From: Methylomonas koyamae
GTDB taxonomy: Bacteria > Pseudomonadota > Gammaproteobacteria > Methylococcales > Methylomonadaceae
DNA length: 64,000 nt
Reading direction: 5' to 3'
Assembly (NCBI RefSeq): GCF_019669905.1
Contig: NZ_AP019777.1
Location: 1,488,001-1,552,000, forward strand
Below, one piece after another: positions 14,526 through 62,202 of this stretch (position 1 is its first letter; every line of letters starts with the position of its first letter). Below the pieces are notes generated by a model. It was not told the DNA's origin, did not search any database, and worked only from the letters and a program-made list of their open reading frames with translations. The translations under genes were made by a program, and so were the position numbers.

Positions 14526-15155
14526 ATGAGCGAAATTAAAGACAAATCCATAGAAATATTTCTCGACGAGTTGGCTAGCAAGCAAGCCACGCCGGGCGGC
14601 GGTAGCGCGGCGGCGGTGATGGGGGCGCAAGCAGCGGCTTTGGTTAGCATGGTGTGCAATCTGACGATAGGTAAACCCAAATATGCCGCTGTGGAATTGG
14701 AATTGAGAGATTTGCTCGGCGAAGCCGAAGTGTTGCGGCAAACGCTGCTCGGGATGGTCAAAGCCGATGTCGACGTATTCGATAAGTTGATGGCGTGTTA
14801 CGGACTACCGAAAACCAGCGAGCAGGAAAAGGCCTACCGTAGCGAGCAAATCCAAACGGTGCTGAAAGAAGCGACATTGGTGCCGTTGGCTTGCGCTAAA
14901 GCTTGTGCGCAGGCCATCGAGCTGAGCCGCATTGCCGCCGAAAAAGGCAATCTCGGCGTGATCAGCGATGCGGGCGTAGCGGTGATGGCCGCCTACGCCG
15001 GGCTGAAGAGTGCGGCATTGAACGTGCAAATCAATGCGGGCGGCTTGAAAGACCGAGTTTTTGCCGAAGCGCAATTGGCCGAGCTCGCCGGCTTGCTGTC
15101 GGTCGGCGAGCAAGCGACAGCAAAAATTTACCAAATCGTCAAAGACAAACTTTAA
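14526..15155 (+). CDS. fchA: Methenyltetrahydrofolate cyclohydrolase (FTCD_C family)
   Basis: 209 residues, the size of the stand-alone cyclohydrolase FchA of methylotrophs. It interconverts 5,10-methenyl- and 10-formyl-tetrahydrofolate. The family N-terminus is clear (FLDELASKQATPGGGSAAAVMGA), and the second signature (EKGNLGVISDAGVAVMAA) is the conserved substrate-pocket segment. The ATG at 14526 has a GAGGA Shine-Dalgarno eight bases upstream, better than the upstream ATG in the cysS 3' end. Its presence fits a folate-based C1 assimilation route, but the formiminotransferase domain of histidine degradation is absent. It converges on nifA. Confidence 0.9.
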   Translation: MSEIKDKSIEIFLDELASKQATPGGGSAAAVMGAQAAALVSMVCNLTIGKPKYAAVELELRDLLGEAEVLRQTLLGMVKADVDVFDKLMACYGLPKTSEQEKAYRSEQIQTVLKEATLVPLACAKACAQAIELSRIAAEKGNLGVISDAGVAVMAAYAGLKSAALNVQINAGGLKDRVFAEAQLAELAGLLSVGEQATAKIYQIVKDKL

Positions 15156-46238: not shown

Positions 46239-46622
46239 CTACTCTTTACCGTTTTTATTTTTGCGATAAGTTTGCGCCGCGTAATTCTTGGCTTGGTCTT
46301 TAGAATTTTCCGAAAAGAAATTTTTGTAAAAACCGCCGTTTCGGTCGGCGATTGCCCGGCAAACATCTTTGAACAAGCCGGTGTTGTCGATCACCGCTCG
46401 CGGGCTCAGGCCGTGCTGATTGGTCAGATAATAGGAAACGCCCATCAGATAGGCCTTTTCCCGGCCGTTGAGTTTAATCAGAAGCTTTTTTTGTTTGTCG
46501 TAAACATAATACGACGTCAACGCCAGCAGGCTCAGGCCCAGAAATTTGGTCCACAACAGGATGTAGGATTTATCTTCGAAAAGTGTTTGGCCCTTGTGCA
46601 GTATGGCTTCGGTTCTGGTCAT
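46239..46622 (-). CDS. Small membrane-anchored protein of unknown function
   Basis: 127 residues. One hydrophobic segment near residues 21-42 (LLWTKFLGLSLLALTSYYV) and a hydrophilic C-terminus with Lys/Asn repeats (YAAQTYRKNKNGKE). GAGGA lies upstream of the ATG. No family recognised. It is convergent with trmL; upstream, 255 bases away, lies the candidate sigma-54 RNA on the opposite strand. Confidence 0.6.
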   Translation of the reverse strand: MTRTEAILHKGQTLFEDKSYILLWTKFLGLSLLALTSYYVYDKQKKLLIKLNGREKAYLMGVSYYLTNQHGLSPRAVIDNTGLFKDVCRAIADRNGGFYKNFFSENSKDQAKNYAAQTYRKNKNGKE

Positions 46623-46772: not shown

Positions 46773-46814
46773 TTTTGGTGCAAGGGCCGGCCGATTCTGC
46801 CTGTTTGTGGTGCA
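46773..46814. promoter_or_regulatory. Two NtrC half-site-like motifs
   Basis: TTTTGGTGCA (46773-46782) and TGTGGTGCA (46806-46814) each match one arm of the NtrC palindrome (TGCACCA-N3-TGGTGCA). Their equivalent bases are 32 apart (three helical turns) and they lie about 65-100 bases upstream of the sigma-54 promoter at 46877. No complete palindrome is present, so binding is tentative. Confidence 0.4.
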
Positions 46815-46876
46815 TTGGGCGTGCGGGATTCGTCGGATAAGCGTTGAAAGTGGCTTGGAATGGCTTGTTCTTGTTT

Positions 46877-46892
46877 TGGCACTAACTTTGCT
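46877..46892 (+). promoter_or_regulatory. Consensus sigma-54 promoter without a downstream gene
   Basis: TGGCACTAACTTTGCT is a full match to TGGCAC-N5-TTGCW with correct -24/-12 spacing. Downstream on this strand there is no ordinary gene but an intrinsic terminator ending near 46980. The predicted start is near 46903. Confidence 0.8.
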
Positions 46893-46902
46893 TTGTTGAA
46901 AG

Positions 46903-46979
46903 TGTGTGTTGTTACTCCTACCTGTTCTCATGTGTGGACGCTACGCCCTAATTGGACATCCAAGCAGGGCGTTTTTTTT
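46903..46979 (+). ncRNA. Candidate sigma-54-dependent small RNA of about 75 nt
   Basis: Bounded by the sigma-54 promoter at 46877-46892 and the terminator hairpin at 46943-46979. The body is a pyrimidine-rich unstructured stretch (GTTACTCCTACCTGTTCTC) before the hairpin, the usual build of a trans-acting RNA with a free 5' seed. It contains a 33-codon frame (46930-47031) starting MCGRYAL with no ribosome binding site, so a coding relic is the alternative. Nothing here was recognised as a named RNA. Confidence 0.5.
46943..46979 (+). terminator. Strong intrinsic terminator
   Basis: ACGCCCT (46943-46949) pairs with AGGGCGT (46966-46972), enclosing an inner TTGGA/TCCAA stem, followed by a run of eight T (46972-46979). 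On the minus strand no T-run follows, so it serves a plus-strand transcript and not yjdM. Confidence 0.85.
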
Positions 46980-47001
46980 GCGTCCGGCAAAAGCCCCCGG
47001 A

Positions 47002-47340
47002 TTAAGCCTTTTTAACGAATTCAGACTTTAATTTCATCGCGCCGATACCGTCGATTTTGCAATCGATGTCATGGTCGCCTTCGACCAAACGGATGTTTTT
47101 AACGCGGGTGCCGACTTTGACGACCAAAGACGAACCTTTGACTTTCAAATCCTTGATCACGGTAATGGTGTCGCCGTCTTGCAGGACGTTACCGTTGGCG
47201 TCTTTGACCACTTTCAGGTCGTCGTTATTTTCGACTGCGTCTTGCGACCATTCGTGGGCGCACAGCGAACAAACGAAATTGCTGCCGTCGTGGTAGGTAT
47301 ATTCGGAGCCGCATTGCGGGCAATTGGGTAGTTCGTTCAT
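47002..47340 (-). CDS. yjdM: Zinc-ribbon protein YjdM (PhnA family)
   Basis: 112 residues. An N-terminal zinc ribbon ([12 protein letters not shown], then [10 protein letters not shown]) is followed by the PhnA/YjdM beta-barrel domain ([20 protein letters not shown], then [21 protein letters not shown]). Despite the old name, a role in alkylphosphonate use is not established; function unknown. Monocistronic, with its 3' end next to the plus-strand terminator. Confidence 0.92.
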
Positions 47341-51469: not shown

Positions 51470-52891
51470 TTATTCCTTGATATCGAGCTCCTTGATTTTG
51501 CGGGTCAGCGTGTTGCGGCCGTAGCCCAATAGCAAGGCGGCCTCGTGTTTACGGCCATGGGTATGGTTCAACGCGGCTTCGATCAATAGGGTTTCGACCG
51601 ACGGAATCGCGTGTTTGGCGATGTCGACTTTGCCGGACGTTAGCTGCTGCTTGATCCAGGTCTTGAATTGGCTTTCCCAATCGCCGCTGCCGGATTCGCT
51701 AGTAGCCGTTTCGGCGTGGCTGTGGCTCAACTCGGGAGGCAGGTCTTCGATATGGATTTCGCGCCCGGATGCCATTACCGTCAGCCAACGGCAAATGTTT
51801 TCCAACTGGCGCACGTTGCCCGGCCAGCGCAAGGTGCTGAGGAAGGCCTCGGTATCGGGTTTTAACACCTTGATTTCGGTGTTCAATTCTTTCGCGCTTT
51901 GGTACAGGTAATGCCGCATCAGCAAACCGATGTCCTGCCGCCGCTCGCGCAACGGCGGAATATGGATGCGGATCACGTTCAAGCGGTGAAATAAATCTTC
52001 CCTGAACCGGCCTTGGGCGACCAGCGCCTCCAAATCCTGGTGAGTGGCGGCAATGATGCGGACGTTGACCTTGACCGAAGTATGCGCGCCGACCGGATAA
52101 AATTCATTGTCCGCCAGCACCCGCAATAATCGGGTTTGCAATTCGGCCGGCATGTCGCCGATTTCGTCCAGAAACAGCGTGCCGTTGTTGGCTTGTTCGA
52201 AGCGGCCGATGCGGCGGGCTTGGGCGCCGGTAAACGCGCCTTTTTCATGGCCGAACAGTTCGGACTCCATCAAATCTTTCGGAATCGCCGCCATGTTCAA
52301 TGCAATGAAAGGCTGGTCGGCGCGCGGGCTATGCCGGTGCAGAGCTTTCGCCACCAGTTCCTTGCCGGTGCCGGATTCGCCGTTGATCAGGACGGTAATG
52401 TGGGAACGGGCCAGGCGGCCGATGGCGCGAAACACTTCTTGCATCGCCGGTGCTTCGCCGATGATTTCCGGCGTCTCCTGCACCCGGTCCTGTTCCTGGG
52501 CGCTATCGCTGTGGCGTTGCCGGCTGTGGGCGCAGGCGCGCTGTACCGTTTCGACGACTTCGGTGACATCGAACGGTTTGGGCAGGTATTCGAAAGCGCC
52601 GCCGTGAAATGCCGAAACTGCGCTCTCCAAGTCCGAGTGCGCGGTCATAACGATGACCGGCAGCTCGGGATAACTGTTTTGTATGTTGCGCAGCAATTCG
52701 AAACCGTCCATGCCCGGCATGCGGATGTCGGTAATTAGCACGTGCGGCAAACCCTGGGGCAGCGATTTTAACAATTCGCCGGCATTGGAGAAGCTCTGGG
52801 TACTGGCTCCGGCTTTCTGCAGGGCTTTTTCAAGTACCCAGCGGATGGATTTGTCATCATCGACAATCCAGACCTTGTCAGGAATTTGCAT
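51470..52891 (-). CDS. ntrC: Nitrogen regulation response regulator NtrC
   Basis: 473 residues. Receiver domain with the phospho-acceptor Asp in LITDIRMPGMDGFELL (about residue 55), AAA+ domain with GESGTGKE, GAFTGA and FLDEIGDMP, and a C-terminal Fis-type HTH (HEAALLLGYGRNTLTRKIKEL). Phosphorylated by NtrB under nitrogen limitation, it activates sigma-54 promoters through TGCACCA-type sites such as those noted near ntrB and glnK. Its start overlaps the ntrB 3' end by 14 bases. Confidence 0.96.
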   Translation of the reverse strand: MQIPDKVWIVDDDKSIRWVLEKALQKAGASTQSFSNAGELLKSLPQGLPHVLITDIRMPGMDGFELLRNIQNSYPELPVIVMTAHSDLESAVSAFHGGAFEYLPKPFDVTEVVETVQRACAHSRQRHSDSAQEQDRVQETPEIIGEAPAMQEVFRAIGRLARSHITVLINGESGTGKELVAKALHRHSPRADQPFIALNMAAIPKDLMESELFGHEKGAFTGAQARRIGRFEQANNGTLFLDEIGDMPAELQTRLLRVLADNEFYPVGAHTSVKVNVRIIAATHQDLEALVAQGRFREDLFHRLNVIRIHIPPLRERRQDIGLLMRHYLYQSAKELNTEIKVLKPDTEAFLSTLRWPGNVRQLENICRWLTVMASGREIHIEDLPPELSHSHAETATSESGSGDWESQFKTWIKQQLTSGKVDIAKHAIPSVETLLIEAALNHTHGRKHEAALLLGYGRNTLTRKIKELDIKE

Positions 52892-53933
52892 GATTTTTCT
52901 CCAAAGGTAGGTAGATGGAAAACACGGTGTGGCCGGGTTCGCTTTCGCATTCGATCAGGCCGTTATGCTGGTTGATCAAGGATTGCGCGATCGACAGGCC
53001 CAGCCCGGTTCCTTCGGCGCGGCCGGTGATCATCGGGTAAAAAATTTGTCCCATCAGCTCGGGTTTGATGCCGGGGCCATTGTCGATGATGTCTATTTTT
53101 ACCGTCAGCCGGTAACGTTTGCGGCCTATCGTCATATGCCGTTGCACCCGTGTTTTGATCGTAATCCGGCCGTCGTTCTGCAAGGCCTGCACCGCATTGC
53201 GGACGATGTTCAACAACGCCTGAATCAATTGGTTTTTGTCGGCGAAAATCTCCGGAATACTCGGATCGTAGTTGGTTTGCAGTACGATGCCTTTGGTCGA
53301 TTCCGCCGCCACCAGATGGCGGACGCGTTCCAGCACTTCGTGAATATTCAGCAAGCTTTTATTGGCCGGCTTGTTCGGGCCCAGCATTTTGTCCATCAGA
53401 TCCTGCAAACGGTCGGACTCGGCGATGATGATTTGGGTGTATTCCTTCAGTTCCGGGTCTTGCAATTCCAAATCCAGCAATTGCGCCGCACCGCGGAGGC
53501 CGCCGAGCGGATTCTTGATTTCATGGGCCAAACCGCGCACCAGCATCCGGCTGGTGTTTTGCTGGGCCAGCAATTGCTCTTCCTTGGTAATACGCAAATG
53601 CCGGTCCACCTGTTGCAGCTCTATCAATATCTCGCTGAGTTCACCCTCTTCCAGCAACGGCGTTGCGCTCAGATTCACGGTAATCGACTGGTTGAGCCGC
53701 TCTAGGATCAGTTCTCTATCGACCAGAGGCTCCAGCATATACAAGCGCGGCAGTAATTCATTAAATAGACTGTTGTGTGCGGTTTTGAATAATTTGTGCG
53801 CGGTATGGCCAAGCAAATGCTTGGCGCTGTCCGCCAACAGCATCTCGCCCGCCGGGTTAATGTAGATCAGCCGCAAATCCTTATCGAATAGCAGGATTGC
53901 TTCGTTTAAGTGGTCGAGTATTTTTTTGTGCAC
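52878..53933 (-). CDS. ntrB: Nitrogen regulation sensor kinase/phosphatase NtrB
   Basis: 351 residues, full length. An N-terminal PAS domain (LNEAILLFDKDLRLIYINPAGE), a phospho-acceptor His in RGLAHEIKNPLGGLRGAAQ (about residue 137), and a GHKL ATPase domain with NIVRNAVQAL, DNGPGI and GTGLGLSIAQSL. Soluble, controlled by PII (GlnK). It overlaps ntrC, with a predicted sigma-54 promoter about 37 bases before its start. Confidence 0.96.
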   Translation of the reverse strand: MHKKILDHLNEAILLFDKDLRLIYINPAGEMLLADSAKHLLGHTAHKLFKTAHNSLFNELLPRLYMLEPLVDRELILERLNQSITVNLSATPLLEEGELSEILIELQQVDRHLRITKEEQLLAQQNTSRMLVRGLAHEIKNPLGGLRGAAQLLDLELQDPELKEYTQIIIAESDRLQDLMDKMLGPNKPANKSLLNIHEVLERVRHLVAAESTKGIVLQTNYDPSIPEIFADKNQLIQALLNIVRNAVQALQNDGRITIKTRVQRHMTIGRKRYRLTVKIDIIDNGPGIKPELMGQIFYPMITGRAEGTGLGLSIAQSLINQHNGLIECESEPGHTVFSIYLPLEKNHANS

Positions 53934-56752: not shown

Positions 56753-58096
56753 TTAGAAAGTCACGACCACGTCTGCGGTAAACAGGAACTGGCTTTGGCG
56801 GGTGCCGTTGTCGAACGCTCTGGCGCCATCAGTGATGTCGTAGCGAACGTTCGGACGCAAGTTCAACCACTTGGCAGGTTTATAGCTGACGCCGGCGGTA
56901 ATGCCGTAGTAGCTGGAGGTCAGGTCGTTGTCGGCCGTGTAGGCGCTCCATGCTGCGGTATCGCAGGCATAGTTGCCGTTGATGGTGCCTTGTTCCGCGG
57001 TTTGCGCGGCAAAGCAGCGGCCGGGGCCGCCGACTCTCAGGCCGTTGTGGTCTCTGAACCACTCGGCACGCAGGCCGGCCGAGAATTTATCCGTCACATC
57101 GTAAATCAGGTATTGGTTCAGGCCGTACCACTCGCCGGTTACTCCCGCGGTCGGCGCGTTTTCGGCGAAACCGTGGTCGTGTTGCATGATGAAATGCAAT
57201 TTATCGGTAAAGTTGTGTTTGCCGACCACGCTGTACATGGCCCAGGACGAATTATTGCCTTCCGCAGTCTTGCCGGCGGTGGACGTCACTGCCAAAGAGG
57301 TTCCGGCATCGTCGCTGGTCCAGGTCACGCCACCCAGGAACGACCAGTTGCCGAGTTGGCGGTCCCAGTTACCGTCCCAGCCGCCGCTATTGCTGCCGGT
57401 GACTGCGCCGGCCGAGACGCTCCAATTCGGGTTGAAGGCGTAGCTTGCCAATACCCCGGTGTGGGTGAACGGCTCGCCGTATTGCATGGTGTACGGTTTG
57501 GTAATGAAGAAGTTGTCCGGTGCGGTGACGACTTCGTAGCCGATGATGGTGTAGAAGTGGCCGATTTTGACGTCGATGCCGTTACCGATAGGCAGGTTGA
57601 GTTCGGCGTAAGCCTGCGGCAGAGCCAAGCCGTAGAAGCGTTCGCCATGCCCGCTCAGATTCAGGTCCCAACTGCCTCTGTCGATATCCGCCCACGACGT
57701 GCCGTAGGCTTGGGTGAAAATTGCATCGGTACCGTACATGATGTCGAAACGTCCGCCGATATCGAAGGCGTCGCCGCTGACGTTGACGGCTTTTTGCAGA
57801 TAAAGGTAAAGCTGATTCAGTTGCAATTCGCCGGTACGGTCGTTGAAGGTGACGGGGCCGTTGAAGCCGTCGCCGTTACTGTTCATGTTTGCAGAAACGC
57901 TGGAATTCAACCATCCGCCCAACTTCAGATTGTGGTCCTGCATGAATTTGGTTTCGTTGGGGTCGATGCCAGCCGCGCCCAACAAGCCTGAAGCCTGGCT
58001 CCAGGTCTCGGCGACGGCGCTGCCGCAGCACAGCGCGATGACCGCCGCCAACGAGCCGCGAGTGCCAAGCGTGAGTGATGGAAAGACTTTTTTCAT
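56753..58096 (-). CDS. Outer membrane porin (BBP2/OmpL-like), probably nitrogen-regulated
   Basis: 447 residues. The signal peptide (LAAVIALCCGSAVAE) precedes a beta-barrel with many alternating strands, ending in Phe (FTADVVVTF). The early KLGGWLNSSVSANMNS and RFDIMYGTDAIFTQAYGTSW segments are typical of the putative beta-barrel porin-2 family (PF07642). Substrate unknown. A sigma-54-like promoter about 40 bases upstream and NtrC-type sites shared with glnK suggest induction on nitrogen limitation, so uptake of a nitrogen compound is a reasonable guess. AAGAGG precedes the ATG. Confidence 0.85.
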   Translation of the reverse strand: MKKVFPSLTLGTRGSLAAVIALCCGSAVAETWSQASGLLGAAGIDPNETKFMQDHNLKLGGWLNSSVSANMNSNGDGFNGPVTFNDRTGELQLNQLYLYLQKAVNVSGDAFDIGGRFDIMYGTDAIFTQAYGTSWADIDRGSWDLNLSGHGERFYGLALPQAYAELNLPIGNGIDVKIGHFYTIIGYEVVTAPDNFFITKPYTMQYGEPFTHTGVLASYAFNPNWSVSAGAVTGSNSGGWDGNWDRQLGNWSFLGGVTWTSDDAGTSLAVTSTAGKTAEGNNSSWAMYSVVGKHNFTDKLHFIMQHDHGFAENAPTAGVTGEWYGLNQYLIYDVTDKFSAGLRAEWFRDHNGLRVGGPGRCFAAQTAEQGTINGNYACDTAAWSAYTADNDLTSSYYGITAGVSYKPAKWLNLRPNVRYDITDGARAFDNGTRQSQFLFTADVVVTF

Positions 58097-60264: not shown

Positions 60265-60777
<513 letters not shown>

Positions 60778-60816
60778 TCGACCGATAACACAATAAGATC
60801 GGGCGTAAGATCGGCA

Positions 60817-60861
60817 AAAATCGCCCTGGTCTGCGGGTAAAACGCAGACCAGGGCGATTTT
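60817..60861 (+). terminator. 19-bp perfect hairpin between glnK and amtB (second pair)
   Basis: The arms 60817-60835 (AAAATCGCCCTGGTCTGCG) and 60843-60861 are perfect complements with a 7-base loop, ending in TTTTGTTGTTT. It should strongly attenuate transcription from glnK into amtB, and because the stem starts AAAA it can work on both strands. Confidence 0.85.
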
Positions 60862-60909
60862 GTTGTTTATAGCCCGTCAAAAAACAACACAACCATTTCG
60901 TGATAGACC

Positions 60910-62202
60910 ATGACAACAATTATAAGAGCGTTGACGCTCATCGCCTTCACCTGGGCCATACCCGTTTCGGCTTCCGCCGATGAGTTAAACCAAGCCAATA
61001 CCGCTTGGGTGCTAACTTCGACCGCATTGGTATTATTCATGACCATTCCCGGCCTGTCGCTGTTTTACGGCGGTCTGGTCAGGAGTAAAAACGTGCTGTC
61101 GGTATTGATGCAATGTTTTTCGATCACCTGTTTGGTATCCCTGCTTTGGCTGGCCGGCGTCTACAGCTTTGTCTTCGCCGACGGCAGCGACTGGCAACCG
61201 TGGTTGGGCGGCGCGTCCAAGCTATTTCTGCCGGACATGGGGATCGGCAACTTGACCGGCGACATTCCGGAAACCGTGTTTTTCATGTTCCAGATGACGT
61301 TCGCGATTATCACGCCGGCCTTGATCGTCGGCGCCTTTGCCGAGCGGATGAAATTTTCGGCCATGCTCTGGTTTAGCGGATTGTGGCTGGTATTCGTTTA
61401 CATGCCGATCTGCCACTGGATCTGGGGTAACGGCTGGTTGGCGGCGCTGGGTGCCAAGGATTTTGCCGGCGGTATCGTGATCCACGTCAACGCCGGCGTT
61501 GCCTCGTTGGTGGCCGCGTTGGTGCTGGGCCGGCGCAAAGGCTTCCCGAGCGTGGCGATGCCGCCGCACAACATGACGATGGTCGTGACCGGCGCCGGCA
61601 TGCTCTGGTTCGGCTGGTTCGGCTTCAACGGCGGCAGCGCCCTGAAAGCGGACGGCTCGGCCGGTATGGCCATCGCGGTAACCCATATCGCCGCTGCGGC
61701 CGGCTCGTTGACCTGGATGGCCATCGAATGGCTGCGTTTCGGCAAGCCCAGCGTGCTGGGTATCGTCACCGGCATGGTGGCCGGATTGGGCACCATCACG
61801 CCGGCCTCCGGTTTCGTCGGCCCGATCGGCGGATTGGCGATCGGTGTGGTGGCTGGCGGGGTTTGCTTTTATGCCACCCAATTCGTCAAACGCCGTCTGA
61901 AAATCGACGATTCGTTGGACGTGTTTCCGGTCCACGGCGTCGGCGGCTGCGTCGGTTCTATTTTGACCGGGGTATTCGCGGCCGAGAGTTTCGGCGGTCT
62001 GGGTTTGAACGGCGTCAGCATCGGCCACCAGGTGGCGGTCCAAGCCCTGGCGGTATTGGTAACCGCGGCCTGGAGCGCCGTTTTCAGTTACGGCCTGTTG
62101 AAAACGCTGGATCTGCTGATCGGCTTGCGCGTTACGGAAGACGAGGAACAGCAAGGCCTGGATATCGTGCTGCACGAGGAGACCGGCTACCACAATCTGT
62201 AA
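60910..62202 (+). CDS. amtB: Ammonium transporter AmtB (second copy)
   Basis: 430 residues. A signal peptide (LIAFTWAIPVSASA) and eleven membrane helices. The pore His are in GGIVIHVNAGVASL and DVFPVHGVGGCVG; the Phe gate region is FFMFQMTFAIITPALI; the tail is GLRVTEDEEQQGLDIVLHEET. Shorter and divergent from the first copy, so the two pairs probably arose by an old duplication or separate acquisition. It lies 133 bases after glnK, with a strong hairpin between them. Confidence 0.95.
   Translation: MTTIIRALTLIAFTWAIPVSASADELNQANTAWVLTSTALVLFMTIPGLSLFYGGLVRSKNVLSVLMQCFSITCLVSLLWLAGVYSFVFADGSDWQPWLGGASKLFLPDMGIGNLTGDIPETVFFMFQMTFAIITPALIVGAFAERMKFSAMLWFSGLWLVFVYMPICHWIWGNGWLAALGAKDFAGGIVIHVNAGVASLVAALVLGRRKGFPSVAMPPHNMTMVVTGAGMLWFGWFGFNGGSALKADGSAGMAIAVTHIAAAAGSLTWMAIEWLRFGKPSVLGIVTGMVAGLGTITPASGFVGPIGGLAIGVVAGGVCFYATQFVKRRLKIDDSLDVFPVHGVGGCVGSILTGVFAAESFGGLGLNGVSIGHQVAVQALAVLVTAAWSAVFSYGLLKTLDLLIGLRVTEDEEQQGLDIVLHEETGYHNL

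Follow-up and report, generated by a model that had tools for sequence, protein, structure and literature searches.

A conserved cassette in Methylomonas koyamae predicts a 77-nt small RNA with a sigma-54 promoter and a probable place in the nitrogen regulon

A stretch of 64,000 nucleotides of the Methylomonas koyamae genome (the window) contains at positions 46776-46979 a compact cassette, which comprises a pair of NtrC-type half-sites, a sigma-54 -24/-12 promoter, a predicted RNA of 77 nt and a terminator with T8 (Table 1). We read positions 46903-46979 as a stand-alone, trans-acting small RNA (sRNA), which is activated by NtrC and sigma-54 at low nitrogen and pairs via its 5' end at mRNA starts; a probability of about 0.7 was assigned to this reading. 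The predicted sRNA family is judged real and new, and its probable kind, an sRNA under NtrC and sigma-54, is already known.

Table 1. Features of the sRNA cassette and the genes of its likely activator system (positions in the window).
Feature	Position	Strand	Basis
Distal NtrC-type half-site TGGTGCA	46776..46782	+	Sequence; TGGTGC core identical in 15/15 genomes
Proximal NtrC-type half-site TGGTGCA, 32 bp from distal	46808..46814	+	Sequence; TGGTGC core identical in 15/15 genomes
Sigma-54 -24/-12 promoter TGGCACTAACTTTGCT	46877..46892	+	Sequence; TGGCAY-N5-TTGC in 15/15 genomes
Predicted small RNA, 77 nt	46903..46979	+	Sequence, alignment, covariance models R1 and R2
Near-invariant sRNA 5' part	46905..46940	+	BLAST core (query 66-101), 97-100% identity in distant genus members
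Intrinsic terminator (interrupted stem, T8)	46943..46979	+	Sequence; stem pairing in alignment
ntrC, likely activator gene	51470..52891	-	NCBIfam TIGR01818, 736 bits (cut-off 558.6)
ntrB-like sensor kinase gene (name inferred)	52878..53933	-	Pfam HisKA, HATPase_c, PAS; overlaps ntrC start

The orphan sigma-54 promoter and the undescribed sRNA of about 75 nt, which a sequence-only reading of the window had claimed, are well supported, with the RNA now predicted at 77 nt and without an Rfam family; the -24/-12 site, the half-site pair and the compound hairpin with T8 were all confirmed in the sequence. The promoter reads TGGCAC-TAACT-TTGCT, and the +1 of the RNA is a prediction, set 12 nt after the -12 C. 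The terminator arms are located at 46943-46949/46966-46972 (outer) and 46952-46955/46960-46963 (inner), with T8 at 46972-46979; the interrupted stem is absent from the list of a simple terminator scan. Both flanking genes, at 46239-46622 (unknown) and 47002-47340 (yjdM/phnA), are on the minus strand. Because the T-run is 3' of the hairpin on the plus strand only, the terminator was taken as part of the plus-strand transcript and not of phnA. The exact promoter string occurs five times in the 5.1-Mb genome, compared to once for its reversed control, and two of the four other genomic copies sit before nifH and an nrtA-like gene. In a search against Rfam 15, no covariance model matched at its gathering score in the whole window, and the best hit to the sRNA interval was a 15-bit snoRNA match below its gathering score. 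The window RNA alone folds modestly better than shuffled sequences (z = -1.96; 8 of 200 shuffles were as good); it is conservation, not folding energy, that places the cassette beyond chance.

Using BLAST with positions 46840-47001, the cassette was found in 15 of 101 genomes, including the one analysed here, all of them Methylomonas; this form is termed type A. In the 15-row alignment, both TGGTGC cores had a pairwise identity of 1.00, and mean pairwise identity was 0.92 for the -24/-12 element; within the sRNA, it was 0.94 over the leading 39 nt (46903-46941) and 0.70 over the terminator. Inter-site sequence, spacers and flanks reached only 0.38-0.58. In 14 genomes, 31-32 bp separate the half-sites; in G030, the spacing is 20 bp, about one helical turn shorter. 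All 15 genomes have a promoter correctly spaced from the RNA and a T-run of 7-8 at the terminator. Pairing in the terminator stem holds for 99.2% of cells (12 distinct sequences); covariation support is modest, since one of ten stem pairs has changed on both sides and four never vary. The exact 25-mer of the sRNA is present on seven contigs of named genomes, six from Methylomonas (M. koyamae SM2, M. methanica R-45363, M. methanica NCIMB 11130, M. fluvii EbB, Methylomonas sp. LW13 and Methylomonas sp. WSC-7) and one from an uncultured MAG.

A covariance search in relatives, as proposed in the sequence-only reading, returned copies within the genus and no reliable homologue outside it. Over 237 family genomes, model R1 found the 15 type A copies and a diverged form, type C, in G001 and G002, where TGTGTTGTTCCTCCT is located at the 5' end and sigma-54 promoters are present; the G001 copy has a single GCACC upstream. 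Model R2, which covers types A and C and was run on the 37 genus genomes, added G033 (E = 4.6e-4) with a sigma-54 site, two GGTGC and a shortened 5' motif, bringing type C, each with a sigma-54 promoter, to three genomes beyond the 15; for 18 of the 37, R2 gave no credible sRNA copy. A doubtful type C-like copy in G026 (L185, G026:C2:90986-91064; R2 E = 0.03) adjoins a narK-like gene and shows TGGCCTCATAATTGCT and a GGTGC upstream. Nine weak matches in other genera (E = 0.002-0.09) were discarded as homologues, none having a sigma-54 site in the stretch examined. On a contig from another genus (G103), whose many small genes look phage-like by eye, TTGTTACTTCCATCTTGTTCTC, near the sRNA 5' part, is found with a terminator and without a sigma-54 site (L095, 1501-1569).

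The case named beforehand as evidence against the sRNA, that close relatives have lost the promoter and the hairpin, was looked for in G011, G020 and G035, the nearest relatives on a protein tree of RR-X, an AtoC-like response regulator that scores below the NCBIfam cut-off for both AtoC and NtrC; all elements are kept in these genomes. On the same tree (32 genomes, midpoint root), type A is distributed over two clades with sRNA-free genomes among them, and the type A sRNA is either ancient with losses or was transferred.

The 15 type A cassettes occupy three gene neighbourhoods. Five adjoin phnA, as in the genome analysed here, and ten are found next to other genes: nine converge on the RR-X gene, and the locus of G030 has a separate, third neighbourhood. 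In G017, the upstream neighbours resemble those of the RR-X group and the downstream neighbours are those of the phnA group. Because the sites, promoter, RNA and terminator remain constant while the neighbours change, the cassette behaves as an independent gene. In the neighbourhoods read, no close same-strand gene was found downstream of the sRNA.

Within the window, the sRNA is located about 4.5 kb from ntrC. The two GGTGC half-sites upstream of it are identical in 15 of 15 genomes and common to nitrogen promoters; a full dyad was not seen. In promoter tables resting on loose consensus patterns, as do those for the type C copies, the other RR-X loci and the porin loci, the glnK, ntrB and BBP2 porin promoters of the window have GGTGC/GCACC sites together with sigma-54-like boxes, and glnA has a single GCACC without such a box. 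The tandem pattern TGGTGC-N20-45-TGGTGC-N40-70-TGGYAY-N5-TTGC was matched in 27 of the 101 genomes and the reversed pattern in none; the 27 matches are 14 type A sRNAs, two nirB leaders, ten genes of a CP-ATP-grasp type and one nirB-like gene. Since the half-sites match those of nitrogen-regulon promoters, NtrC is the simplest activator reading, and it likely activates the sRNA. Concerning the co-regulation with nitrogen genes claimed earlier, sites common to the glnK, ntrBC, nirB, CP-ATP-grasp-type and porin promoters uphold it in part; at the sRNA itself, half-sites and no full dyads were seen.

Two further genes with such promoters were recorded. The CP-ATP-grasp-type loci stem from ten genus genomes (L055, L058, L060, L061, L065, L068-L071 and L073); their ten products have a common N-terminal pattern, and the one tested is a circularly permuted ATP-grasp (PF14403). 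The gene is likely part of a nitrogen-regulon operon. The BBP2-family porin gene (PF07642) is located between glnA and glnK at 56753-58096 on the minus strand, and in its promoter a pair of GCACC sites accompanies a sigma-54-like box, TGGCCCCAAAAATGCT. Thirty porin loci were fetched and 28 examined (three were without a start found and one without upstream sequence; the start in G030 and G033 is probably wrong). A sigma-54-like site was present in 23 of the 28, and 22 of these had at least two GGTGC/GCACC. Because this promoter layout recurs in 22 of 28 loci, the porin looks like a member of the nitrogen regulon.

The main rival to NtrC is RR-X, which would activate the sRNA in its place and form with it a CbrB-CrcZ-like pair answering another signal. 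It retains this rank because it is adjacent to the sRNA in nine genomes and within 2 kb of it in the type C genomes G001 and G002; furthermore, 35 of the 37 genus genomes have an RR-X match, and the copy in the genome analysed here is 75% identical. However, this copy is unlinked to the sRNA, no cassette was found at 21 other RR-X loci scanned, and the half-sites of the sRNA match nitrogen-gene promoters. The C-terminal helix region also differs, reading TTRETLRYRV in RR-X and YGRNTLTRKI in NtrC. We consider activation by RR-X unlikely.

The sRNA might instead be a cis-acting NasT/ANTAR attenuator leader which lost its gene, or a decoy titrating NasT. Within this genome, the leaders of nirB and nrtA resemble it in promoter type, size and terminator, having a sigma-54 promoter, GGTGC-type sites, a short RNA and a GC-rich terminator, and model R1 ranked nirB leaders second in G000 (E = 0.01) and G030 (E = 3e-4). 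These leaders act in cis, with genes downstream and a hexaloop hairpin of ANTAR type, neither of which the sRNA has. ANTAR proteins are described as needing hexaloop hairpins with A1 and G4 (PMC3369931). In a scan with a chance background of 10% of window 85-mers, A1/G4 hexaloop hairpins were found in four of four nirB leaders (one each in three, two in the fourth) and in the nrtA leader (three), as against none of five type A and none of two type C copies; with 0 of 7 sRNA copies positive, the decoy was dismissed, and the reading as a gene-less attenuator leader or decoy is very improbable. Since nirB leaders are missing from the matches of model R2 at E 0.1, common descent of sRNA and nirB leader is only suggested. 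The remaining proposal, a tiny hydrophobic peptide with a GTG start (VLLLLxVL...) encoded at the locus, is hardly credible. No stop interrupts its frame ahead of the terminator in 14 of the 15 type A copies, nor in the type C copies of G001 and G002, and several changes between types A and C are at third positions, as read by eye; within type A, however, third positions are near-invariant, the GTG is too near the +1 to leave room for a Shine-Dalgarno sequence, and the frame is broken in G033. Because 16 of 18 homologues have no stop before the RNA end, no complete conserved ORF exists among them, and a peptide gene was rejected. The same applies to the window ORF at 46930 (MCGRY-like start by eye), whose downstream ATG start is lost in G020 and G035 (ATG to AAG).

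At the nirB leader (L111, ~7780; G000:C1:2293771) and the nrtA-like leader (L112, ~8425; G000:C1:2458409), ANTAR-type hairpins overlap the terminator behind a sigma-54-type promoter, and in G002 an ANTAR protein gene adjoins nirB. The sequences suggest that nitrate/nitrite assimilation may be controlled by NtrC plus NasT-type antitermination.

For the NtrC-activated, trans-acting sRNA, we infer the following course of events. When nitrogen is short, phosphorylated NtrC would bind both TGGTGCA sites and activate sigma-54 RNA polymerase at 46877-46892; the sRNA transcript would end at the terminator (46943-46979). Its unstructured, near-invariant 5' end (UGUGUUGUUACUCCU) would then base-pair at the translation-start regions of target mRNAs, probably assisted by Hfq, and the targets would most likely be repressed. 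An hfq gene is present in the genome (102.9 bits), and the sRNA has a U-rich tail and a CUCCU inside its conserved part, which could meet Shine-Dalgarno sequences. Fold predictions for types A and C leave most of the 5' end unpaired. The sRNA likely acts by base-pairing, with UGUGUUGUUACUCCU at 46905-46919 as its likely seed.

That the pyrimidine-rich 5' part pairs with ribosome binding sites had been proposed in the sequence-only reading. No other part of the RNA is as conserved, but searches for long sites and duplex energies give the proposal no support. With up to two mismatches, AGGAGTAACAACACA had 27 sites in six genomes, six of which are the sRNA itself, versus 19 for the reversed control, i.e., no excess; the 21 non-self sites included no convincing target kept across clades. 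When a 20-mer was searched with up to three mismatches in 37 genomes, the genome analysed here gave the sRNA itself only. Across the window, duplex energy gives nitrogen genes no advantage, five nitrogen-related entries ranking 11, 28, 33, 45 and 50 among the 58 window genes; the porin, ranked 45 of 58, was rejected as a target in G000.

Short perfect matches were counted in 220 start regions: eight matches of 8 nt, where shuffles averaged 3.9 (as many or more in 11 of 200), and five of 9 nt, nifH counted twice, where they averaged 1.2 (as many or more in 2 of 200). Among 140 genes of the genome analysed here, a 9-nt match was found in four, namely amtB2, nirB, an IS256 transposase and the gene at 14526; nifH was tested apart from this set. 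In 11 nitrogen genes, three (amtB2, nifH, nirB) match the conserved 5' part perfectly over 9 nt, a count that none of 1000 dinucleotide-shuffled sRNAs equalled; this is no clean probability, because the gene set, chosen post hoc, and the length of 9 were settled after the 220-region scan. For the nifH and amtB2 leaders, duplex energies were no better than those of shuffles (156/500 and 360/500 as low, respectively), and G030, G033 and G002 lack the nirB match. Near the porin start, 8 of the 17 sRNA-bearing genomes read have a 10-nt match, all of them from one clade, and no target is conserved across both type A clades. Every named target (amtB2, nifH, nirB, porin) is a lead only.

At 60440-62202 on the plus strand of the window, a second ammonium transporter gene (60910-62202, TIGR00836) comes after a second glnK-like ORF; its 5' region holds AACAACACA, complementary to sRNA nt 3-11. 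The IS256-family transposase (L112, 10180-11406) has the ribosome site GAGGAGTAAC, a perfect 9-nt match to GUUACUCCU of the sRNA, which may be due to chance.

A further-reaching reading, which we regard as possible and rather doubtful, combines a built-in brake on nitrogen scavenging in methanotrophs with an origin of the sRNA. NtrC would turn on ammonium transport, nitrite reduction and the porin, with nitrogenase downstream (nifH is also present in this genome), and at the same time the sRNA, whose near-invariant 5' end (UGUGUUGUUACUC) would pair at the starts of amtB2, nifH and nirB, and of the porin in the sister clade; this would be an incoherent feed-forward loop on nitrogen-scavenging genes. 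The sRNA would descend from a nirB leader, which may have lost its ANTAR hairpin and its gene.

Small RNAs controlled by NtrC and sigma-54 are known in a few bacteria. The sigma-54 sRNA gene beside the gene of an NtrC-family regulator, as seen in nine of the 15 genomes, resembles CrcZ and CbrB of Pseudomonas; CrcZ exceeds the present sRNA in length and has A-rich Hfq/Crc decoy motifs, whereas none were seen in the 77-nt RNA. NrsZ of Pseudomonas aeruginosa, which depends on NtrBC and RpoN, is similar in its RpoN promoter, probably under NtrC here, and in having ntrBC nearby in this genome. NrsZ is described as an RNA of about 226 nt, which is processed and located in the ntrC-PA5126 intergenic region (PMC8395346); the shorter sRNA found here, at its distance from ntrC and with other neighbours in 10 of 15 genomes, is set apart from it by this description. 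NfeR1/alpha-r14 of Sinorhizobium meliloti is likewise linked to nitrogen, with an anti-Shine-Dalgarno-like pyrimidine motif and a tie to NtrBC. NfeR1 is reported to have three CCUCCUCCC motifs in hairpins and to be repressed by NtrC (PMC10746234), in contrast to the one CUCCU, the mostly unpaired 5' end and the activator-type promoter of the present sRNA. For methanotrophs, sRNAs of other kinds are reported from Methylosinus sporium 5 (PMC12403871), and in the part of the open-access literature covered, no NtrC/sigma-54-controlled sRNA was found for Methylomonas or another methanotroph. Seemingly in one regulon with glnK, ntrBC, nirB and the porin, a conserved sRNA would give methanotrophs a further, post-transcriptional level of nitrogen control.
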